Shown here: positions 1-37,327 of the stretch, piece by piece | Position numbering within the stretch: position 1 is the stretch's first letter | Layout of the letters: each line of letters starts with the position of its first letter | NCBI GenBank assembly: GCA_963930775.1 | Contig: OZ005693.1 | Location: 5,394,001-5,458,000 of the forward strand | Source: Cliona cf. orientalis | Taxonomy: Eukaryota > Porifera > Demospongiae > Clionaida > Clionaidae | DNA length: 64,000 nucleotides | Reading direction: 5' to 3' | The notes under the pieces: model-generated | What the model saw: only the letters and a program-made list of their open reading frames with translations | Databases searched by the model: none | What the model was told of the DNA's origin: nothing | Program-made: the position numbers and the translations under genes

Positions 1-398
1 TGTACGGTAATACTATATAGAAGTAGACATACCAGAGCGATTCTCTACCTTCAGAAACTTATCTCATCTTGTCTATAGCCTTCGATCTTGCGATTTTTGA
101 TCGTTTGTATTGCTATATATTGTGCACGTGATACCAGACCAACGTCATTATTCGTCATAGCTTCTGTTACGGAGCGGTCTTTGTTTGAGGCTTTGCACAC
201 TAATACTGCTGCTAAAAGTGATATTTCTATTTATTATCGGTAATATGCATGCAAAGTTAGAAAAAAATCTACTCTTTTGCTGTGTAGCACTGTAAGTTAC
301 ATAACTTAATTTCACTGGTTTGTATATGTATGTATTATTATGTAATACCAATATAATCATTATTATACATTCATGCAGTCATACAGACAGCGATATCT
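1..398. other. 5' flank of the NLR gene
   Basis: No convincing gene is visible. The frame leading into the 2A leader is open back to about position 357, where a TAA lies, and it contains no ATG. AG dinucleotides near 378 and 386 could be splice acceptors of an upstream exon that supplies the initiator Met. The promoter was not identified. Confidence 0.4.
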
Positions 399-3300
399 TT
401 GAGTGTTCTGTGGAAAGCCCTGGCCAGTAAGCAGGAGCTGGTGGAGAAGCTGCATTATGTTGAATCAGATACTAAAGTAGAAGTTGTGATGATGACCAAG
501 CTCCAGAGGACTTGGGTGTTGGCAGTAGCAAAAGCAGTGCTGGATGTTATGTTATCAGTAGCTTTTTTTGTCATCTTATCGTTATTGCTGATATCTGGAG
601 ATGTTGAGGAGAACCCTGGACCTGTTGGAGGTATATTATTTTTTAAGTAGCTATGAGTCTTATTACTATGCTAGTAATATCCTGCAGATCTTGATTACAT
701 GAGTATTGATAGCAGTCAAGTATTAAGTAAGTAGTACATAAATAACTTTTGCATACATGCATGCACAATATCGTTATGATACTGTAACAATGCATAGTAA
801 CCATTGTTATACAGATGAAGATCATTTGAGTGATATCATGGAAGAAGTTCTGGACATTAAGTCGGTGTACTTTGCCCTCGGTCGATCCTTGAGATTACGA
901 AATGACGACTTACAAGCTATTCGTAAAACATATCCCAACGAATCTGATCATGAGCAAGCACTTAATGATGTGTTGCTTTTGTGGCTTAAAAGAGAGTACA
1001 ATGTAGAGAGTTTTGGTCCACCTACATGGCGGATGCTGGTGGAAGCCGTCAACAAAAAGAGTGGTGGAAATAATTATGAACTGGCCAAACAAATTGCTCA
1101 AAATCATAAAACAGGTGGAGTTATCATGCATGCATGCATGCCATAAGTTTATAGACCAATTTCTGCATGGCCCTAAAGTATCCTATAAGCGTAATAGTAA
1201 TAATTATTATAACACTATACATACATACATACATACATATTTTCTTATCTCTTGCTTATTGCGTTTGATTCACATATATACTCAGCTGCTGGAGCTACTG
1301 GTGGATCAGAGGTGATAAATGTCAGCATTGTCAACGTTCATAAGGGAAGTAGAGATTCAAATGGTGAGTGACATCATTAACATTTACTAGTAATTTTATT
1401 AGTGACTGATATTATGTATACAGCTACAGCCCTCTTGACTCTTGACAACATCAGGGAAGTACTTGACCTGACTTTTCCTCATCGTGCAAAGTGGAGACTA
1501 ATTGGCGTACAGCTGGGTATCGATGTTGGCACACTTGATGCTATAGAGGCAAACAGAAAAATGGTTGAGAACTGCCTCACTGACTTAATTTCACACTGGC
1601 TCCAAAATACTGTGCCCCAACCAACCCGTGGTGCCTTAACTGCCATTCTTCAGTCTCAATATTGTAAATCAGGTAAATGATAATTATGCACACTATAAAA
1701 ATTAATTTAGAACTTCTATTCTCTTGACTTACAGTCACCACTGATAGTCACAAGGAAGATTATGCAGCATATCTAAAATGTGTCTACAAAATTATGACCT
1801 ACGGTAGCTTTATGCAAGGTGATCAGTGGCCTCCTCCCATTGCAGACAATATGAGAGTGTGCCATTTAGCTATGATAAAGGCGGAGAAAATCCAGAGAAA
1901 GCATGTTGAGGATGATTTTGTGAGAATGACCATCACTGGAAAGGTGGATGATATTCTTCAACAAAAAGTTCCAGTTGAGCTCCAAAACATTTTCACACAG
2001 ATAGAGGAAGGAAAGCCACGAAAGGTACTGCTAGAGGGTGCTCCAGGGTGCGGTAAGAGCACCCTCTCTTTTCATATTTGCCAGCAGTGGAGAGAAGGCA
2101 ATCTGTTTCAGGAATACCGGCTGGTAATACTAGTGCGGCTACGGGAACAAGCAGTCCACACTGCCAAAGATATAGCTGATCTAATGCCACGAAGAGACAA
2201 ATTACGTCAGGTATCTGAAGAACTATTTGTCAGCAGGGGAAAGGGCATCCTCTTTGTCTTAGATGGTTGGGATGAACTCCCACCAGGAGGTGTACCAGGC
2301 TGTGCAGTCATCAAAGAACTACTCCACTCTCCAAGTTTTGATGTCATCATCACATCTCGACCAACATCTTCAATGAGTCTTTATGCGCTGAAAGTACTTC
2401 ACACTCGAATTGAGATTTTAGGATTCACAGAGAAAGAACTTAGACGATACTTTGCAAGTTGCTTGGACAATGTCACACAGATCGAAACATTGCAGCAGAG
2501 CATCCGAAAGAATCCAGTGATAGCAGGCACTTGTTATCTTCCCTTGAATGCCAGCATCCTAGTGCATCTCTTTAAATATTTTGATCATGAGCTTCCAGAG
2601 ACTCAATTTGAGATATTTGATGCACTTGTTTGTAACTGCATACTTCGACATAATATGAAGAAATCTGACAAAAGAATTTCAGGGATAAAATCTATAGCTG
2701 ACCTTCCACCAATGATTAAAGATCAATTTGCAAAAATTTGTAAATTAGCTTATAAAGGTGTGATGAAAGATGTGATTATCTTTGAGTCTAAGGACTGGCA
2801 GCTCGATAGCGATTTTAATACCCTTGGTTTGCTTCAAGGAGTACAGAGCTTAATTGTTGCAGGAACATCACACTCTTACAACTTTCTTCACCTATCTATA
2901 CAAGAACTCTTGGCGGCCATTCATATGGCCACTCAGTTGGAACCAAGTAAGCAGGTCAAGAAATTCAAACAACTTTTTGGACGACCTCGTTTTGCTGTTG
3001 TATTTCAATTCTATGCTGCCAAAACTAAACTAAAAACTCCCGGAATTCAGAAAGTGGTGGTGAAAGCAGTTAAGAAGTATTTAGCTGATCCCAAAATAAT
3101 TGAGTTAACTCCTGAAGCCACTGCTCAGAATCATTCAGCCTTTAAAAAGTTGAAAGATGCGATGGTTGCAGCAGTTACGAGACGTTCAGCTAATCCCCCG
3201 GCTAGGCATGCGCAGGACTACACTACTGCTCAAAATCCTTCAATCTCTAAACATGTGGAACCCCAACCACTGATTCTTTCCCTGCTGCATTGTCTTTATG

Positions 3301-5657
3301 AAGCACAAGACAGTACTCTATGCCAATTGGTAGTGCAACAATTCAAAGGCAAACTGGGTCTATTTCACATCAGCTTCAATCCTGCCGATTGCCTGGCAGT
3401 AGGTTATTTTCTGATCCACTGCAAACCCGTTGGTGATGAAGGGTGCAAAACTCTATTCGGAGGTGGTGCAGTTTATGACCTACGGATTCTTAAGTAGGTG
3501 ATGTTTCCCAGCAGAGTGCACATAACCCACGCTGGCCGCTTATAAGCCACACCAGCCATGTGACGCACACGTGCACGCGCGCTTGCATGTGTACGTATAC
3601 GTACAATCGTGTTCTCAATTATTAATAATTATGCACGCGCAGCTGTAAGTTTCATTTTCTAGCAGTATATTAAAATCAACATCTGAATCTCTGTTAAAGT
3701 TTGTCATGCAGCGGCTGTCATACTCATTGATGTGGAGACTGGAGGTAAGAATGCTTGTGGTTATTTCGTATGATACTATCAGTAGACTTTCAGTGGGAGC
3801 CTATGCACCAGACTCTGCTGACAGCCTGTTGTACTGAACTATATAGCTAGCCTCGTCCCCAGTATACTGTCAGAGCCTTCATAAAATTTACTTGCGAAGG
3901 GGCTGGCCTGTGAGACTATACTAAAATGGTGCATGTTCAATGATGTTGGGTCGTTTGAAATAATAATATGATTTATTAAGTGAGCCTGGGATATGCTTAC
4001 CAGCCCCTTTGTAGCAAGCACGCGAATAAGCATTTTAAAATTTCAAAGCTGAAAACTAGCTCTGCCTTTTAAACTAGCCAAAGGCAACAGCTATAGCCTT
4101 TGGCTAAATACAGCTGTTACCTAGCTGCGTTAATTAAATTTACAGTAATTAAAGTGATTGCCATGACAACATTGAACTTTACCACAGCTTAACTTGTACG
4201 TTGCCCCCAGTACAATCAATCACTATTACTCACTATTGTTGCCATGGTGATAAGATTAAAATTCCTTTAAATTGCTTCTCATTAACAATAACAACATTTA
4301 TTTTAATAAATACCTAGACTTAATGCTAGTTACCTACTTAGTATAATTAACAACTAGGAGTAGCTACAATAATGTTGTCTACTTACTAGACTAGCTAGGT
4401 GAGTTAGTGTGTCATGGCGATTGCATGGTGTTTTCCTCTCTCTTCTCCCACTCACAGCCTCGAGGTCAACTCCATCGGCGCCGAAGGAGCCAAGGTCCTG
4501 TCCGACGCCATCAAGACAATGGCTAATCTTGAGACGTTGCGGTAAGTTGACCTAGCTACAATAATGTTGTCTACTTACTAGACTAGCCTAGCTAGGTGAG
4601 TTAGTGTGTCATGGTGGTCAGTGTCTTCCTCTCTCCTTCCACTCACAGCCTCTCCTCCAACTCCATTGGCGATGAAGGAGCCAAGGCCCTGTCCGACGCC
4701 ATTAAGACAATGGCTAATCTTAAGGAATTGCAGTAAGCTGACCTAGCTACAATAATGTTGTCTACTTACTAGACTAGCCTAGCTAGGTGAGTTGGTGTGT
4801 CATGGCGGTCGGTGTCTTCCTCTCTCCTTCCACTCACAGCCTCCAGAGCAACTCCATCGGCGATGAAGGAGCCAAGGCCCTGTCCGACGCCATCAAGACA
4901 ATGGCTAATCTTGAGCAGTTGTCGTAAGTTGACCTAGCTACAATAATGTTGTCTACTTACTAGACTAGCTAGGTGAGTTGGTGTGTCATGGCGGTCAGTG
5001 TCTTCCTCTCTCCTTCCACTCACAGCCTCGGCCACAACTCCATCAGCGATGAAGGAGCCAAGGTCCTGTCCAACGCCATCAAGACAATGGCTAATCTTGA
5101 GCAGTTGTCGTAAGTTGACCTAGCTACAATAATGTTGTCTACTTACTAGACTAGCTAGGGTAGTTGGTGTGTCATGGCGGTCGGTGTCTTCCTCTCTCCT
5201 TCCACTCACAGCCTCCAGAACAACTCCATCGGCGATGAAGGAGCCAAGGCCCTGTCTGACGCCATCAAGACAATGGCTAATCTTCGGGCATTGAAGTAAG
5301 TTGACCTAGCTACAATAATGTTGTCTACTTAGTAGACTAGCTAGGTGAGTTAGTGTATCATGGCGGTCAGTGCCTTCCTCTCTCCTTCCACTCACAGCCT
5401 CCAGTGGAACTCCATCAGCGATGAAGGAGCCAAGGCCCTGTCCGACGCCATCAAGACAATGGCTAATCTTAAGTGCTTGTGGTAATTTGACCTAGCTACA
5501 ATAATGTTGTCTACTTACTAGACTAGCTAGGTGAGTTAGTGTGTCATGGCGGTCAGCCTCTCCTTCCACCCACAGGCTCAAGGTCAACAACGCCATTACA
5601 GTCGAAGGATGGAGAGTTCTTAGAGAAGCTGCTGAAGAAAAAGGCATAAATATATAG
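399..5657 (+). CDS. NLR immune receptor: 2A leader, two Death-type domains, NACHT, LRRs
   Basis: This is a multi-exon NLR-type gene. Exons chain in phase: up to 630, 815-1114, 1286-1363, 1424-1672, 1735-3493, then LRR exons 4458-4541, 4649-4732, 4840-4923, 5026-5109, 5212-5295, 5398-5481 and a last one at 5576-5657. The product is about 1,040-1,070 residues. In order it has a hydrophobic leader ending in a 2A motif; a Death-fold domain (about 830-1110); a linker; a second Death-fold domain (about 1424-1665); and a NACHT NTPase with Walker A GAPGCGKST near 2037-2063 and Walker B ILFVLDGWDEL near 2246-2280. LRRs of the ribonuclease-inhibitor type follow, with NSIGDEGAKALSDAIKTM as core. NACHT-LRR proteins with Death domains are cytosolic sensors that oligomerise on ligand binding; that role here is inferred. 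The start is uncertain: 399 is a TTG, the first in-frame ATG is 489, and an upstream exon is possible. The donor at 3494 (GTAGGT) leaves phase 2, which matches every LRR exon, so the TAG at 3495 is probably intronic. The TAG at 5655-5657 overlaps a GTAAGT donor. Splicing to 6337 would build a TAA stop across the junction, so the protein ends at the same residue either way. No frameshift was seen. Confidence 0.85.
597..623 (+). other. 2A translation-skipping motif (GDVEENPGP)
   Basis: In frame in the first NLR exon, codons for GDVEENPGP follow a hydrophobic stretch (VAFFVILSLLLIS). This matches the 2A consensus D-x-E-x-N-P-G-P. The expected skip is between Gly (618-620) and Pro (621-623), which would release the leader as a separate peptide. 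2A motifs at the N-terminus of NLR-type genes have been described in sea urchins and sponges, where the 2A can also act as a signal sequence when skipping fails. Activity here is inferred from the intact consensus. Confidence 0.9.
3494..4457 (+). other. Intron between NACHT exon and LRR exons
   Basis: A 964-nt intron between the GTAGGT donor at 3494 and the acceptor ending at 4457. It holds alternating purine-pyrimidine words near 3570-3610 and a CTCGTCCCCAG word near 3851 recalling the MITE family described below. A short acceptor/donor-flanked piece near 3712-3745 has a stop in the required phase, so it was not taken as an exon. Confidence 0.5.
4380..5657 (+). repeat. Tandem array of LRR exon-intron units
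   Basis: Six 84-nt LRR exons, all phase 2 at both ends, alternate with near-identical introns of 107, 107, 102, 102, 102 and 94 nt. The period is about 186-191 bp. Introns share words such as AATAATGTTGTCTACTTACT and CTTCCACTCACAG. Each exon encodes one 28-residue LRR. Exons differ mainly at the first few codons (LEVNS, LSSNS, LQSNS, LGHNS, LQNNS, LQWNS) and the last few, which lie at the start of the LRR consensus and at exon junctions. The last exon is a divergent capping unit. Confidence 0.9.
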
Positions 5658-27561: not shown

Positions 27562-28662
27562 TAATTCAACATTTGTGGGTTAGCCCACTATGGCTCTCAG
27601 CCTTTCATTAATCTTCCACTAAGTTAGCTCCTATAATGTAATAGTTGACAATACCGCCTTAATCGGTGGACTTACTTCAAGTGTTGAAGATTCTTCATTG
27701 TCTTTAAAGCTTCAGAAACAATATGAGCTCCTTCGTCTCCAAGCGAGTTATATCTAAGGCTGTGCAAGAATGATCTCTTAGTGGCAAAGTTATCAATTAT
27801 TACGTAGCATGGAAAGTGTGAGCTCCTGGACATTGGTACCCATGCAAAAACAAGAATTTTTGAGGGTTCAGTTTTGTAGAATCCATTACTCACATAGCTC
27901 TTCTGATATAAACATTGAGGATGGTCACACTATTACATGCACATATATAAAACGGTGTGATAATTATTGGTAATTAACAATGAAAGCAATAGGGATAACT
28001 CTGATTATAGATTAATAAACATCCACGATTATCATACAGCAATCAACTTACTCCAGACTCTTAATAGGATAGACTTGGCCTGGCTTGAATAAAGCATTGC
28101 ACTTGTCTTTATCAATGGAGCAGCTGTTGAGATCTATATCAAAGTTCTCTAGGTGCTTGACACTAGACCAAAACTGTGATTTCCTTAAATTCAGTAGTGT
28201 TTACCATTTCCTACACATATTTATTGGAGGATAGGGCAGAATTTTTGCTAACTTGAATGAAATATGCAGAAAATTTGCTCTATCCTACACATTTCCTACC
28301 TGCACAAAATCCATATTTTCGTCTAGTGTGAGGAAGTACTGCAGTGAAAAGGATTCTACCAGACTAAGTGTGGTTGTTCTTAGGTTCAATTTTGATTCAA
28401 GCTGATCAGCAACCAATTCACACAAAGAGGAGTCTTGAGCCTCATAGAGACAGTGCAGCAGAGAGAGAAGAAGAGCTACATTTGTATGATCAGGATAGTC
28501 AACAGCACACCCTTTTGCTACTTGGACTACAACATCTTTGATTTCTGGTGTCTTCAGTTTGGTGATGGCTGCATAAAATTGAAAAACATGCACTGAATCG
28601 TGGGTTATTGTACATCTGCTTGAACTTTTCTGCCTGCTCATCATTCTGTAGTTTCGTTGCTA

Positions 28663-28730
28663 CGAAGAGGAGGTGTTAAGAGTGACTGGATACAATGTAA
28701 ACTCGTTGATGATAAGGTGGATGAAATAGT
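28663..28730 (+). repeat. 68-bp inverted copy of the pseudogene's own sequence
   Basis: Reads CGAAGAGGAGGTGTTAAGAG at its start and ATGAAATAGT at its end. It is the exact reverse complement of 29669-29736, which encodes part of the pre-NACHT segment. In the pseudogene it separates LLAAVHI from VATKLQ, which are contiguous in the intact paralogue (LLAAIH-MATQLE), so it is an insertion. Confidence 0.9.
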
Positions 28731-30761
28731 ATATGGACGGCAGCCAGTAGTTCTTGAATAGACAAGTGAAGAAAGTTGTATGAATATGATATCCCACCGA
28801 TACTATCAAAACTTTCTACTTTCTGAAGTAGATCAAGTCAGGCTGTTCCAAATGAAAGATAACTTTGTCGATCATAATACCATCACAAGCTAGTTCACAG
28901 AGCTTTTGAAAGTGATTTGAGGAGGTTTGGATAACGATTTAATTTTGGGAATATCAGTGGCACCTGGTTGAGTCCTCCTGAGATAGCAATAAATGCAGTT
29001 GCAAATAAGGTCAGAGAAGATTCCATACTGGGTATCAGGAAGCTCACCATTCCCGCACATAAATAAGTGCACTACAATACTAGCGTTTAATGGGAGGTAA
29101 CAGATGCCTTCAATTTTTGGGTTATTTTTATTCGTTTCAGCAAACTATCAACATCCTTTGGATCATTTTTGAGGCAAAATGCAAAATGAGATCGAAGTTC
29201 TTGCTTGCTGAATCCCAAAATCTCCACACGCAAAGATAAATACTCGTAAAGGTTTACTGAAGATGTTGGCCGAGATGTTGTGATGATGGAGCTTTTACAC
29301 AACTTATTGCCTTTTATGAGATCAAGAATGACTGAGTGTCCTGGATTTTCTATAGTCAGCTCATCCCAACCGTCAAGAACAAACATGATACCTTCACCAT
29401 CACTTGCTATTTCTCTTCTGCTACTTCTCCAACAATATTTTGTAATAAATGAGCAGCTGATTTGGCATTTTGAACAAATAAATCTCGTAGTTTTATCAAA
29501 ATAACCCGCTTGTAGTCTTGAAGCAGCTGCCCATTAGCCCACTGATATCGGATATGAAAAGAAAGAGTGCTCTTCCCGCTACCAGGGGCTCCTTTCACTA
29601 ATACATGTACCTTCAATTGATCTTTTGAGAAAATAATATCTTCCAGTTGAATGGGAACCTTTTGACAAACTATTTCATCCACCTTATCATCAACGAGTTT
29701 ACATTGTATCCAGTCACTCTTAACACCTCCTCTTCGAATTTTTTGTTTTGCTTTAATTATTTCTAGCCTGAATACCTTATACCGGTATTCATCATCAACA
29801 GGAGGCGGCCACTGAGTATCATCAGAGGAGGTGTGTATCTTGGATTTGCATTGTGATTTCAACTCCTTAGCATAATCTTCTAGTGTCACCACCTTGCAAG
29901 TGGCATCAGAAAATGTGCTCTCCACTTATTCAGCTAAGTTTTCAAATCCAACTGTTGGTTGTTTTAGGGCCTCAACCATTGCTGACCATTTGGGTAGAGG
30001 ATTGATTCTTTTCAGCCATAGAATAAGCATATCAGAAAAACATTTGTTTACATTTCCTTGATTTGTTTCATTTATTACATCAAGATCAGTCACTTTCAAT
30101 TTCAGTTCAATTCCGATGTTTTTCCAAGCAACTCATGCATCCCATACTGCTTTACGAACATCACTTAGATCATTTAATGTTAAGTGATCTGGAACATAAT
30201 AATACATTATTTTATACTAAGCTTATAGTGTGGTCAGTAAGTACTGTATCATAATAATTATTAGCTATAGTGTGGTCAGTAAGTATACTATAGATATAGC
30301 AGTGTCATAATCAATCTTGAATTTATTATGACTCACCCACCTTGAGGTTTAGGATTGAGTTCTGCATCTCCAGCCATAAGTAGGTGCACAACTGATACAC
30401 GAATGAAACTTAAAAATTGATAAATAAACAATATTAAGTAACGGAAAATGCTGTAAAGGTACCATAGGCGAAAGAGCTGTCTCTTCATTGTAATATCATG
30501 GTTTTGTCTTTTCCAGATCTTGTCTATCCTGTGTGCTACTCTACGGCAGGTAGCCATACATTGAGAAACACAATAAGAGGCAACTGGGTGACCGCCTTTG
30601 CATCTCCTCCACCTGAGAAGGAGGCACAGCATTTTTTGGAATAGGAAGATCACTAGAATTGCTCGCACACAAGCCATATCGGTATTAGTGACCCAATGTA
30701 GTCCACTACTCTTTTGCAACTTGTGAATGTCTTGAAGAGTGAATCCCATTATTTCTGCCAT

Positions 30762-31098
30762 GGCACAGAGTTGCTGGTCTACTGACTGTGTCGATTTCCT
30801 TAGATGAAGGTTTGGTGGTGGTATGGATGCGCGTTAATCAATCACCCACTGACGGTCACGTGATCACACTTAATCTACCTCTGTTACAATAGATAGCAAA
30901 CTCTAGATCGCTGATATGCAGTCACTGTTACAGTAGAGACTTGATTGCTTGATGACTACCAGTATAAAAACTGTATGAAGAGATAACATGCAGTAATACT
31001 AATAAACATATTACTGGCGACTATTATGATGCAAAAATAAGTATTGTTCTCAATTGCTTTGTCGATTAATGCACATGCGTATACGCACGTGTGGCCCG
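30762..31098. other. Upstream region of the NLR pseudogene
   Basis: AT-rich with no supported gene. This is where the pseudogene's promoter would have been. No TATA-type or initiator element could be assigned. Confidence 0.4.
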
Positions 31099-34955: not shown

Positions 34956-35964
34956 GGTACCATTAAATTGCGTGGGCGTGAGGTAGGGGATATGACACCT
35001 AAACCACATCAAAGTCATTAGTGAGGTGCATGTTGTGTAACCACGCCCTTTTAATTGCACAGGTCTCAGGGGTGTGGCTGCTAGAGCCGGAAGTGTTCAT
35101 TTAATATCCTCCATGGACCGGAAGCCGAGCCGGAAGGGAGGGGCCAGGCCACGCCCAAAACAGCCCCACCCTGTTCCCCAAGGACCACCATTCTCAATCA
35201 AGTGCCTACTAACCACCGGATGTCCACCGGAAGCCCACAATCAATCCCAATTAAAACACACAGCTTCCTCAAGGCCAAAACACACACAAACACTTGGAGG
35301 CCGTTCTGCCACACCGCCCACACAAGAGCTCACCTCATTTCCTGTGTGGGCGGAGTAACAACACGTCATCGCAACCACATCCGCTTCAAACCATCGTCAG
35401 CTTCCGTCCAGCCGTACGGTCCCCTACATCGCACCGGCGTACAGTGCCTCATTAACAGACATGGCCTCACCTTTGACCTCCTGCCACGCCCCCAAAGCCT
35501 CCTCGCGGGGTTCAAAGGTCACCACCGCTTCCGGGACACGCCCACCTATCGCCGAGGCCAAGTCCCAGGCGCCGATATCCAAGCACTGGCCTGTGAAGCC
35601 ACGCCCAATCGGAAGCAATAAAACCTGCATTAACGCACACGCACACACTCCACACAGTGCCAGGAACACGCCCACATGCTTAATTAGGCCTAATAAGGCT
35701 TTTTTTTTTTTTTTTTTTTTGTCGTTGCGGTTAATAGTTAAGAAAGAATGCTTTGATCTTGCTTTGATGTGGGCAATTACCGGTGTTTTCTTCAGGGGCC
35801 ACTTCCGGTCGCTAATTACACGCGCATAATCATCCCTGGCCGATTCTGGACACGCCCACCTGCGACCAAAAGCACTCGTATGGCCTCTTCGGCCACGCCC
35901 CTTCACGATTCGCTAATTGAATTAGCCATTCCTGACGCTCACGCCCACGCAATTAAATGGTACC
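34956..35964 (+). mobile_element. TTAA-flanked 1-kb TIR element, copy 1
   Basis: 1009 bp between TTAA at 34952-34955 and 35965-35968. Terminal inverted repeats are GGTACCATTAAATTGCGTGG and CACGCAATTAAATGGTACC. It is studded with CCACGCCC / GGGCGTGG words. Exact TTAA duplication is the hallmark of piggyBac-type insertion; the TIR sequence alone does not assign the superfamily. ORFs occur on both strands (35074-35358 +, 35202-35621 +, 35461-35829 +, 35424-35906 -) with no transposase motifs. A T21 run (35700-35720) lies inside. Confidence 0.85.
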
Positions 35965-35968
35965 TTAA

Positions 35969-37327
35969 GGTAGCATTAAAGTGCGTGGGCGTGAGCGTCA
36001 GGATTGGCTAATTCAATTAGCGAATCGTGAAGGGGCATGGCCGAAGAGGCCATACGAGTGCTTTTGGTAGCGATGTCCAACCTCCAAGGGCCTCCAATAA
36101 ATCGAAAATATCTCAGCTCTGGCTAGGAGTACGCTCACGGAAAAAAATGCGCTGGATAGCTCACTGAATGAGCTATCTACTGACGCCTTAACCGTGCAAA
36201 TCGGTTCCGCGGAACCGCTGCTAGCTTCGTTTTTGTTTGTATTAAGTTTCTATGAGGAAATTTTAGGTGGGCGTGGCTACGTAACGGTTTTATCTACGGA
36301 CACGTTACAAGCACCGTTGGATAGAGCTTGTGGAGAGCTACCTTCTGATACTCGAACATTGATATTCCACTAAAAGATAATCCGCGGAAAAATCAGTGAA
36401 ATTTGGAGGTTGGATATCGCTACTTTTGGTCGAAGGTGGGCGTGTCTAGAATCGGCCAGGGATGATTATGCGCGTGTAATTAGCGACCGGAAGTGGCCCC
36501 TGAAGAAAACACCGGTAATTGCCCACTTCAAAGCAAGATCAAAGCATTCTTTCTTAACTATTAACCGCAACGACAAAAAAAAAGCCTTATTAGGCCTAAT
36601 TAAGCATGTGGGCGTGTTCCTGGCACTGTGTGGAGTGTGTGCGTGTGCGTTAATGCAGGTTTTATTGCTTCCGATTGGGCGTGGCTTCACGGGCCAGTGC
36701 TTGGATATCGGCGCCTGGGACTTGGCCTCGGCGATAGGTGGGCGTGTCCCGGAAGCGGTGGTGACCTTTGAACCCCGCGAGGAGGCTTTGGGGGCGTGGC
36801 AGGAGGTCAAAGGTGAGGCCATGTCTGTTAGTGAGGCACTGTACGCCGGTGCGATGTAGGGGACCGTACGGCTGGACGGAAGCTGACGATGGTTTGAAGC
36901 GGATGTGGTTGCGATGACGTGTTGTTACTCCGCCCACACAGGAAATGAGGTGAGCTCTTGTGTGGGCGGTGTGGCAGAACGGCCTCCAAGTGTTTGTGTG
37001 TGTTTTGGCCTTGAGGAAGCTGTGTGTTTTAATTGGGATTGATTGTGGGCTTCCGGTGGACATCCGGTGGTTAGTAGGCACTTGATTGAGAATGGTGGTC
37101 CTTGGGGAAGAGGGTGGGGCTGTTTTGGGCGTGGCCTGGCCCCTCCCTTCCGGCTCGGCTTCCGGTCCATGGAGGATATTAAATGAACACTTCCGGCTCT
37201 AGCAGCCACACCCCTGAGACCTGTGCAATTAAAAGGGCGTGGTTACACAACATGCACCTCACTAATGACTTTGATGTGGTTTAGGTGTCATATCCCCCAC
37301 CTCACGCCCACGCAATTTAATGGTACC
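35969..37327 (-). mobile_element. TTAA-flanked 1-kb TIR element, inverted copy 2
   Basis: Reverse orientation of copy 1, sharing the central TTAA (35965-35968) and ending at TTAA 37328-37331. It is 1359 bp including a nested 353-bp element, so about 1006 bp native. The inner end begins GGTAGCATTAAAGTGCGTGG. The homopolymer equivalent to T21 is only A9 here; the 12-nt difference keeps the long ORF (36410-36859 +) in frame with its mirror. Sequence is otherwise nearly identical to copy 1. Confidence 0.85.
36069..36421. mobile_element. Nested 353-bp TIR element
   Basis: Ends TAGCGATGTCCAACCTCCA and the inverse TGGAGGTTGGATATCGCTA. The flanks repeat CTTTTGG (7 bp, 8 if the T shared with the terminus is counted). 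Copy 1 carries the empty site (ACCAAAAGCACTC near 35866-35878), so this inserted after the two 1-kb elements were in place. TAGCG termini and a 7-8-bp duplication suggest hAT type. Confidence 0.85.

Follow-up and report, generated by a model that had tools for sequence, protein, structure and literature searches.

A gene of the sponge Cliona cf. orientalis probably encodes two proteins on one message, a hydrophobic membrane protein of 240 residues and a separate NLR receptor, which would be parted by translational skipping at a 2A motif. Most of the gene lies at the start of the stretch of DNA that we analyzed (64,000 nucleotides, C5:5394001-5458000), referred to here as the window. A preliminary description of this DNA had predicted two products from one mRNA, the first a released hydrophobic peptide. 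The prediction of two products per mRNA is well supported by conservation, but the first product is probably a 240-residue protein encoded by three exons rather than a short peptide. The features that make up the gene are listed in the table.

Features of the 2A-NLR gene and of a decayed relative (positions are those of the window unless given on contig C5)
Feature	Position	Strand	Description
Exon U1	C5:5392566-5392785		before window base 1; ATG start; encodes MPYWSIGEWRARIGSSWCALGRP...
Exon U2	C5:5392875-5393132		before window base 1; conserved donor and acceptor
2A exon (U3)	379..630	+	predicted C-terminal exon of membrane protein plus 2A; 252 bases, symmetric phase 1-1
Two in-frame ATGs	489..494	+	candidate starts within U3, used if translation began in this exon
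GDVEENPGP	597..623	+	in frame; skip predicted after the glycine codon (last base 620) and before CCT at 621-623
Phase-1 intron	631..814	+	GT...AG; separates 2A exon from first Death exon
Death domain exon 1	815..1114	+	15.3 bits singly, under the 22.6 cut-off
Linker exon	1286..1363	+	phase-compatible gene model
Death domain exon 2	1424..1672	+	17.4 bits singly, under the 22.6 cut-off
NACHT exon	1735..3493	+	68.5 bits, cut-off 26.7; weaker NOD2_WH and NLRC4_HD2 matches
Seven leucine-rich-repeat exons	4458..5657	+	six of 84 bases; last terminates in TAG
Decayed NLR copy of same layout	30336..30833 (hydrophobic ORF)	-	ORF ends GDAELNPKP; frame-broken NACHT at 28288-29925

The 2A motif of the window gene follows the hydrophobic stretch VAFFVILSLLLIS and conforms to the 2A/StopGo pattern D(V/I)ExNPGP, lying in frame between two coding parts. 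The residues ahead of the motif in the aligned copies of this leader family, referred to here as family A, are LLL(I/L)(S/A)G, a candidate upstream context for skipping. The preliminary description had joined the motif by an in-phase splice to a Death domain, and this join is borne out: the donor at 630 (G|GTATAT) and the exon start at 815 are both phase 1, and the junction (...NPGP-VG-DEDHLSD...) reads through without a stop. It had, however, begun the exon at 399. The exon begins instead at 379, where the acceptor (AG|TC) is retained across the paralogue alignment and the phases and splice dinucleotides fit, and it is probably an internal exon and not the first coding exon. Scored jointly, the two Death exons reach 27.3 bits (cut-off 22.6), with the best stretch within the second exon; the Death region had no match among PDB sequences. 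The joined predicted repeat exons match LRR_6 at 121.1 bits (cut-off 23.4). With a NACHT domain, C-terminal leucine-rich repeats and an N-terminal Death fold (recognized in tandem only), the part behind the 2A has all the domains of an NLR, in the order Death-Death-NACHT-LRR.

We examined the sequence ahead of the 2A exon by comparison of paralogues, which have an upstream block in common. An alignment of eight sequences resolves this block into two exons, U1 and U2, whose donors and acceptors are conserved. In the window gene they lie 0.9-1.4 kb ahead of window base 1 and would be spliced onto the 2A exon. Ten copies were tried, and seven were parsed; in L002 and L006 U1 lies beyond the fetched stretch, and in L005 the acceptor does not match the pattern. 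The joined U1-U2-U3 frame is open in six of the seven, the exception being L012, which has a 10-base deletion in U1. An in-frame stop is found at most 11 codons ahead of the U1 ATG in four of the seven (W, L004, L007 and L008). The spliced model of the window gene has 1233 codons and a single terminal stop, and the skip site divides it into 240 and 993 residues. On the 3' side of the block, 24 paralogous 2A exons align from the conserved AG acceptor to the donor, and the sequence before the acceptor is unconserved. A start at the MHSV ATG of the paralogues was rejected, because the window copy and L001 have lost this ATG whereas the AG acceptor is kept. The third in-frame ATG of U3 lies further downstream, within the hydrophobic part.

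The nature of the protein encoded ahead of the 2A was assessed by hydropathy. The window protein contains four stretches over the threshold, where composition-keeping shuffles give a mean of 2.0 and a maximum of 5; the Death and NACHT exons contain none. These counts are no more than moderate evidence for a membrane protein, and the 240-residue product is probably one. We found no usable relative of it in Pfam, PHROGs or PDB sequences.

We searched the genome (216.8 Mb, 149 contigs) for the motif at the DNA level. The pattern DxExNPGP occurs at 155 places, compared to one for the reversed pattern, and DVEENPGP at 19 places compared to none, so that the motif occurs far above chance expectation. 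By middle codon, the 155 places split into groups of 22, 31, 9 and 93. NACHT genes are also numerous, with 490 first-look candidates, of which 103 were scored; their number and the style of the genes would suit a sponge. At L046, motifs are paired on one strand a few hundred bases apart (C10:760125/760495 and 773803/774007); such a pair would give three products if both motifs share one transcript.

The U1 exon is closely linked to the 2A. Its signature, WRARIGxxWC, occurs at 40 places in the genome and at none with the reversed control. At 38 of the 40 places a strict 2A lies downstream on the strand of U1 and no more than 8 kb away, a limit chosen after the coordinates were known, and at 33 it lies within 2 kb; the median distance from signature to 2A is 968 bases. 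By comparison, random placement on contigs of partly approximate size gave a mean of 0.3, and searches upstream and on the opposite strand each gave 0. The two remaining places are L074, which carries GNVEENPGP, and L075, where repeat sequence lies behind U1 and a strict 2A is absent in the 4 kb read. In the reverse direction, U1 lies within 8 kb of 22 of the 25 family-A 2A sites, with three lacking it. U1-like motifs are also found upstream of other 2A classes (IESN, VETN and VELN loci).

Death or NACHT similarity was found downstream of the 2A in 23 of the 25 family-A loci within the short stretch fetched. When genomic sequences were ranked by likeness to the window NACHT exon, a 2A lay within 9.5 kb upstream for 27 of ranks 1-28, compared to one of the 46 at ranks 29-74. 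Of 621 first-look candidates, 74 were scored in this search, and the ranking used the best 74 of 147 rows; the 73 lower rows that were dropped are mostly extra pieces of the same genes. The NLR-2A pairing therefore looks inherited within one clade.

The exons ahead of the 2A show signs of selective constraint. The dN/dS ratio is 0.23 for U1 (8 copies, L012 left out) and 0.42 for U2 (8 copies, L074 not parsed), and differences in U2 length are all multiples of three. For U3 the ratio is 0.60 before the ATG pair and 0.31 after it (24 copies, L064 left out). L064 (C5:1037906), a 25th copy that was left out of the family-A alignment, has the last hydrophobic segment ahead of the 2A in three tandem copies. 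The 2A motif is present in all 24 aligned copies, but this invariance proves little because the copies were found by the motif. An estimate of the motif losses expected among copies was not relied on, as it treats related copies as independent.

An independent view of motif conservation comes from two further leader families, ELN1 and ELN2, in which the 2A is preceded by a hydrophobic ORF of approximately 230 residues contained in one exon. The two share approximately 45 N-terminal residues (98.8% probability by profile comparison). Family A was considered as a distant homologue of the ELN leaders, and no match was obtained by profile comparison. Homologues were collected from public assemblies, some maybe of the same species, with the 2A region taken out of the query. 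GDxExNPGP is present in 91 of the 98 homologues (ELN2, 53 of 57; ELN1, 38 of 41), and the remaining seven, read by eye, end or diverge in frame ahead of the 2A site. In alignments of 20 ELN2 and 19 ELN1 homologues, hand-chosen and all 2A-bearing, mean pairwise identity of the 2A core is 97% and 99% in the two families compared to 66% before the 2A, and no earlier 10-column window equals the core in conservation (0 of 177 and 0 of 124). The ELN1 and ELN2 examples have three and two hydrophobic stretches, respectively, with shuffles giving means of 1.5 and 1.2 and up to 4. Structure prediction gave all-helical models for the ELN leaders, with pLDDT values of 57 and 62, a confidence too low for a fold search.

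Behind the 2A of the ELN leaders, Death-like domains score 21.6, 19.0 and 17.6 bits, with one locus giving no match, all below the Pfam cut-off of 22.6. Of four stretches read, three (L085, L086 and L088) have ankyrin repeats further along that strand, and the ORF between the Death-like domain and the repeats has no match over cut-off. No NACHT was found among the ELN-locus ORFs submitted to Pfam. We infer that leader, Death-like domain and ankyrin repeats belong to one gene. The downstream partner of the 2A is therefore perhaps not always an NLR.

Other 2A sites in the genome appear to belong to mobile elements. Sites of the DIEVNPGP class are dispersed, mostly on C1 (L019, L022-L024, L026-L032 and L034), and at the loci read a hydrophobic ORF lies immediately ahead of the 2A. 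Helix-turn-helix matches follow at L029 (HTH_28, 6.4e-9), and a PIF1 helicase domain (PF05970, 6.2e-15) was found in L026, which is related to this class but reads DIELNPGP. Two further sites, L025 (DVEVNPGP) and L033 (DIELNPGP), are followed by an apparent cysteine-rich finger and a stretch resembling an endonuclease, which by eye suggest a non-LTR retrotransposon. Within the stretch fetched, Death or NACHT similarity was found downstream in none of the 17 mobile-element rows, compared to 45 of the 59 gene-type rows, with none seen in the other 14. In the window gene, the exons that adjoin the 2A are Death, NACHT and LRR exons rather than those of an element protein, while the 2As of elements adjoin other ORFs. 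The window also contains an inverted repeat with mirrored ORFs at 35085-37198, to which L035 and L075 show close likeness.

We considered whether translation might instead start within the 2A exon, at the ATG at 489 or 492, so that a hydrophobic leader of approximately 44 residues acts as a signal, with skipping giving a cytosolic NLR and its failure sending the NLR into the secretory route. This reading draws on the two in-frame ATGs just ahead of the hydrophobic stretch, at least one of which is kept in all 24 aligned copies, on the lower dN/dS behind them (0.31) than ahead (0.60), and on the leaders of sea urchin NLRs, which behave in this manner in assays according to the available portion of PMC4981915. 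We nevertheless regard it as unlikely. The 2A exon is open and constrained ahead of the ATGs too; homology begins at the conserved AG acceptor, and neither the window copy nor L001 retains the ATG that other copies have there; and two more phase-matched exons lie upstream in paralogues. A different objection to the 240-residue protein would be that U1 and U2 form a separate neighboring gene, with only the 2A exon belonging to the NLR gene. The gap between U2 and the 2A exon of the window gene, which at 1.25 kb exceeds that of the other six copies parsed, would fit this, but order, strand and compatible phases are the same in the parsed copies, U2 runs without a stop to its conserved donor, and the U1-2A linkage holds at 38 of 40 places, all of which render a separate gene quite improbable.

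The function of the 2A itself can also be questioned. If it were inactive in this species, the gene would make a single membrane-bound receptor, an interpretation given to the transmembrane domains of sponge NLRs in the portion of PMC12909245 available, and the NPKP of the decayed window copy and the GNVEENPGP of L074 are departures in that direction. We think this very unlikely: in two leader families the 2A core is better conserved than any 10-column window before it, an intact motif follows U1 at 38 of 40 places, and an inactive motif would need neither. That the 2A is a functionless leftover of a mobile element captured beside NLRs seems to us scarcely credible. Elements with a 2A do exist in the genome (the DIEVNPGP class, the PIF1-helicase relative and the non-LTR-like loci), but their 2As stand in a different sequence context, the Death/NACHT comparison given above separates them from gene-type rows, and conservation of the motif among gene leaders is strong, suggestive of purifying selection on the 2A codons.

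According to the preferred reading, of a membrane protein and an NLR made from one gene, the message would start 1.4 kb before the window with U1 and U2, followed by the 2A exon. The hydrophobic 240-residue protein would be translated first and probably inserted co-translationally into a membrane. Most ribosomes would then skip one peptide bond at NPG/P, releasing this protein, and a cytosolic Death-Death-NACHT-LRR receptor of 993 residues, starting with proline, would follow. Each mRNA would in this way yield membrane partner and sensor in a fixed ratio. Failure of skipping, or omission of the frame-neutral 2A exon, would give a minor fused, membrane-tethered form. The preliminary description had supposed that on failure of skipping the leader could send the entire NLR into the secretory pathway; with a 240-residue protein ahead of the 2A, the product expected is instead an NLR fused to a membrane protein. 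The membrane protein would most likely serve the NLR as a guarded target or as an effector partner. That U1 and U2 are spliced in, that the protein enters a membrane, that ribosomes skip at the motif and how efficiently, and what the membrane protein does are predictions that we draw from sequence.

A broader proposal, which we put forward tentatively and hold to be possible rather than probable, is that the 2A serves as a standing device that pairs a dedicated membrane protein with a Death-domain sensor. At least three leader families (WRARIG, ELN1 and ELN2) would stand before NLRs or Death-ankyrin proteins in this way, the membrane protein being a guarded target or executing partner, and omission of the 2A exon would give a tethered receptor. 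If true, a virus-like recoding signal encodes a sensor and its membrane partner as a unit, rather than supplying an added leader, and the two would be made in a fixed ratio and co-inherited through gene duplication. The interpretation of transmembrane segments in gene models of invertebrate NLRs would be affected as well. The logic would be comparable to that of linked pairs of defense genes in bacteria and of NLR pairs in plants.

Among known systems, the NLRs of sea urchin provide the precedent for a 2A, with dual targeting published by Roulston et al. 2016 (PMC4981915, available in part); a sponge precedent for dual location, which the preliminary description had also cited, was not confirmed in a partial literature search. 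A 2026 paper on StopGo (PMC12846837) names the sea urchin NLR, in the portion available, as a likely case of useful incomplete separation. For sponges, the accessible part of PMC12909245 reports transmembrane domains in NLR architectures of Dysidea avara, termed putative membrane-bound NLRs, and credits the first report of such NLRs to Amphimedon queenslandica. In the parts available of two other papers, the "2a-like" of PMC5890393 is a gene name, and nothing on sponge NLRs or 2A was found in PMC5009743. The partial literature search yielded no description of a layout with leader membrane protein, 2A and NLR, which may be mentioned elsewhere.

The window gene resembles SpNLR2A, as far as the available text of PMC4981915 describes it, in having a hydrophobic stretch and then D(V/I)ExNPGP ahead of a Death-NACHT-LRR receptor, with two products expected. 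It differs in that the 2As studied in SpNLR2A are N-terminal signal sequences of 26 residues, whereas a 240-residue protein of three exons is predicted before the 2A in the window gene. The 2A would not be at the extreme N-terminus as in the sea urchin type, being preceded by two in-frame coding exons whose splicing to it is predicted. With the StopGo/2A recoding elements, as presented in the part of PMC12846837 available, the window gene shares a canonical motif that closes an upstream product; here the case is one of a cellular gene pair, and skipping is predicted. The likeness to the sponge membrane-bound NLRs, judged from the available portion of PMC12909245, lies in NLR gene models with transmembrane segments, but the window gene has a 2A between its membrane part and its NLR, so that the two are predicted to be made mostly as separate proteins. 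The presence of a 2A on NLRs is thus already known from sea urchin, and it is the co-encoded membrane protein that looks new.
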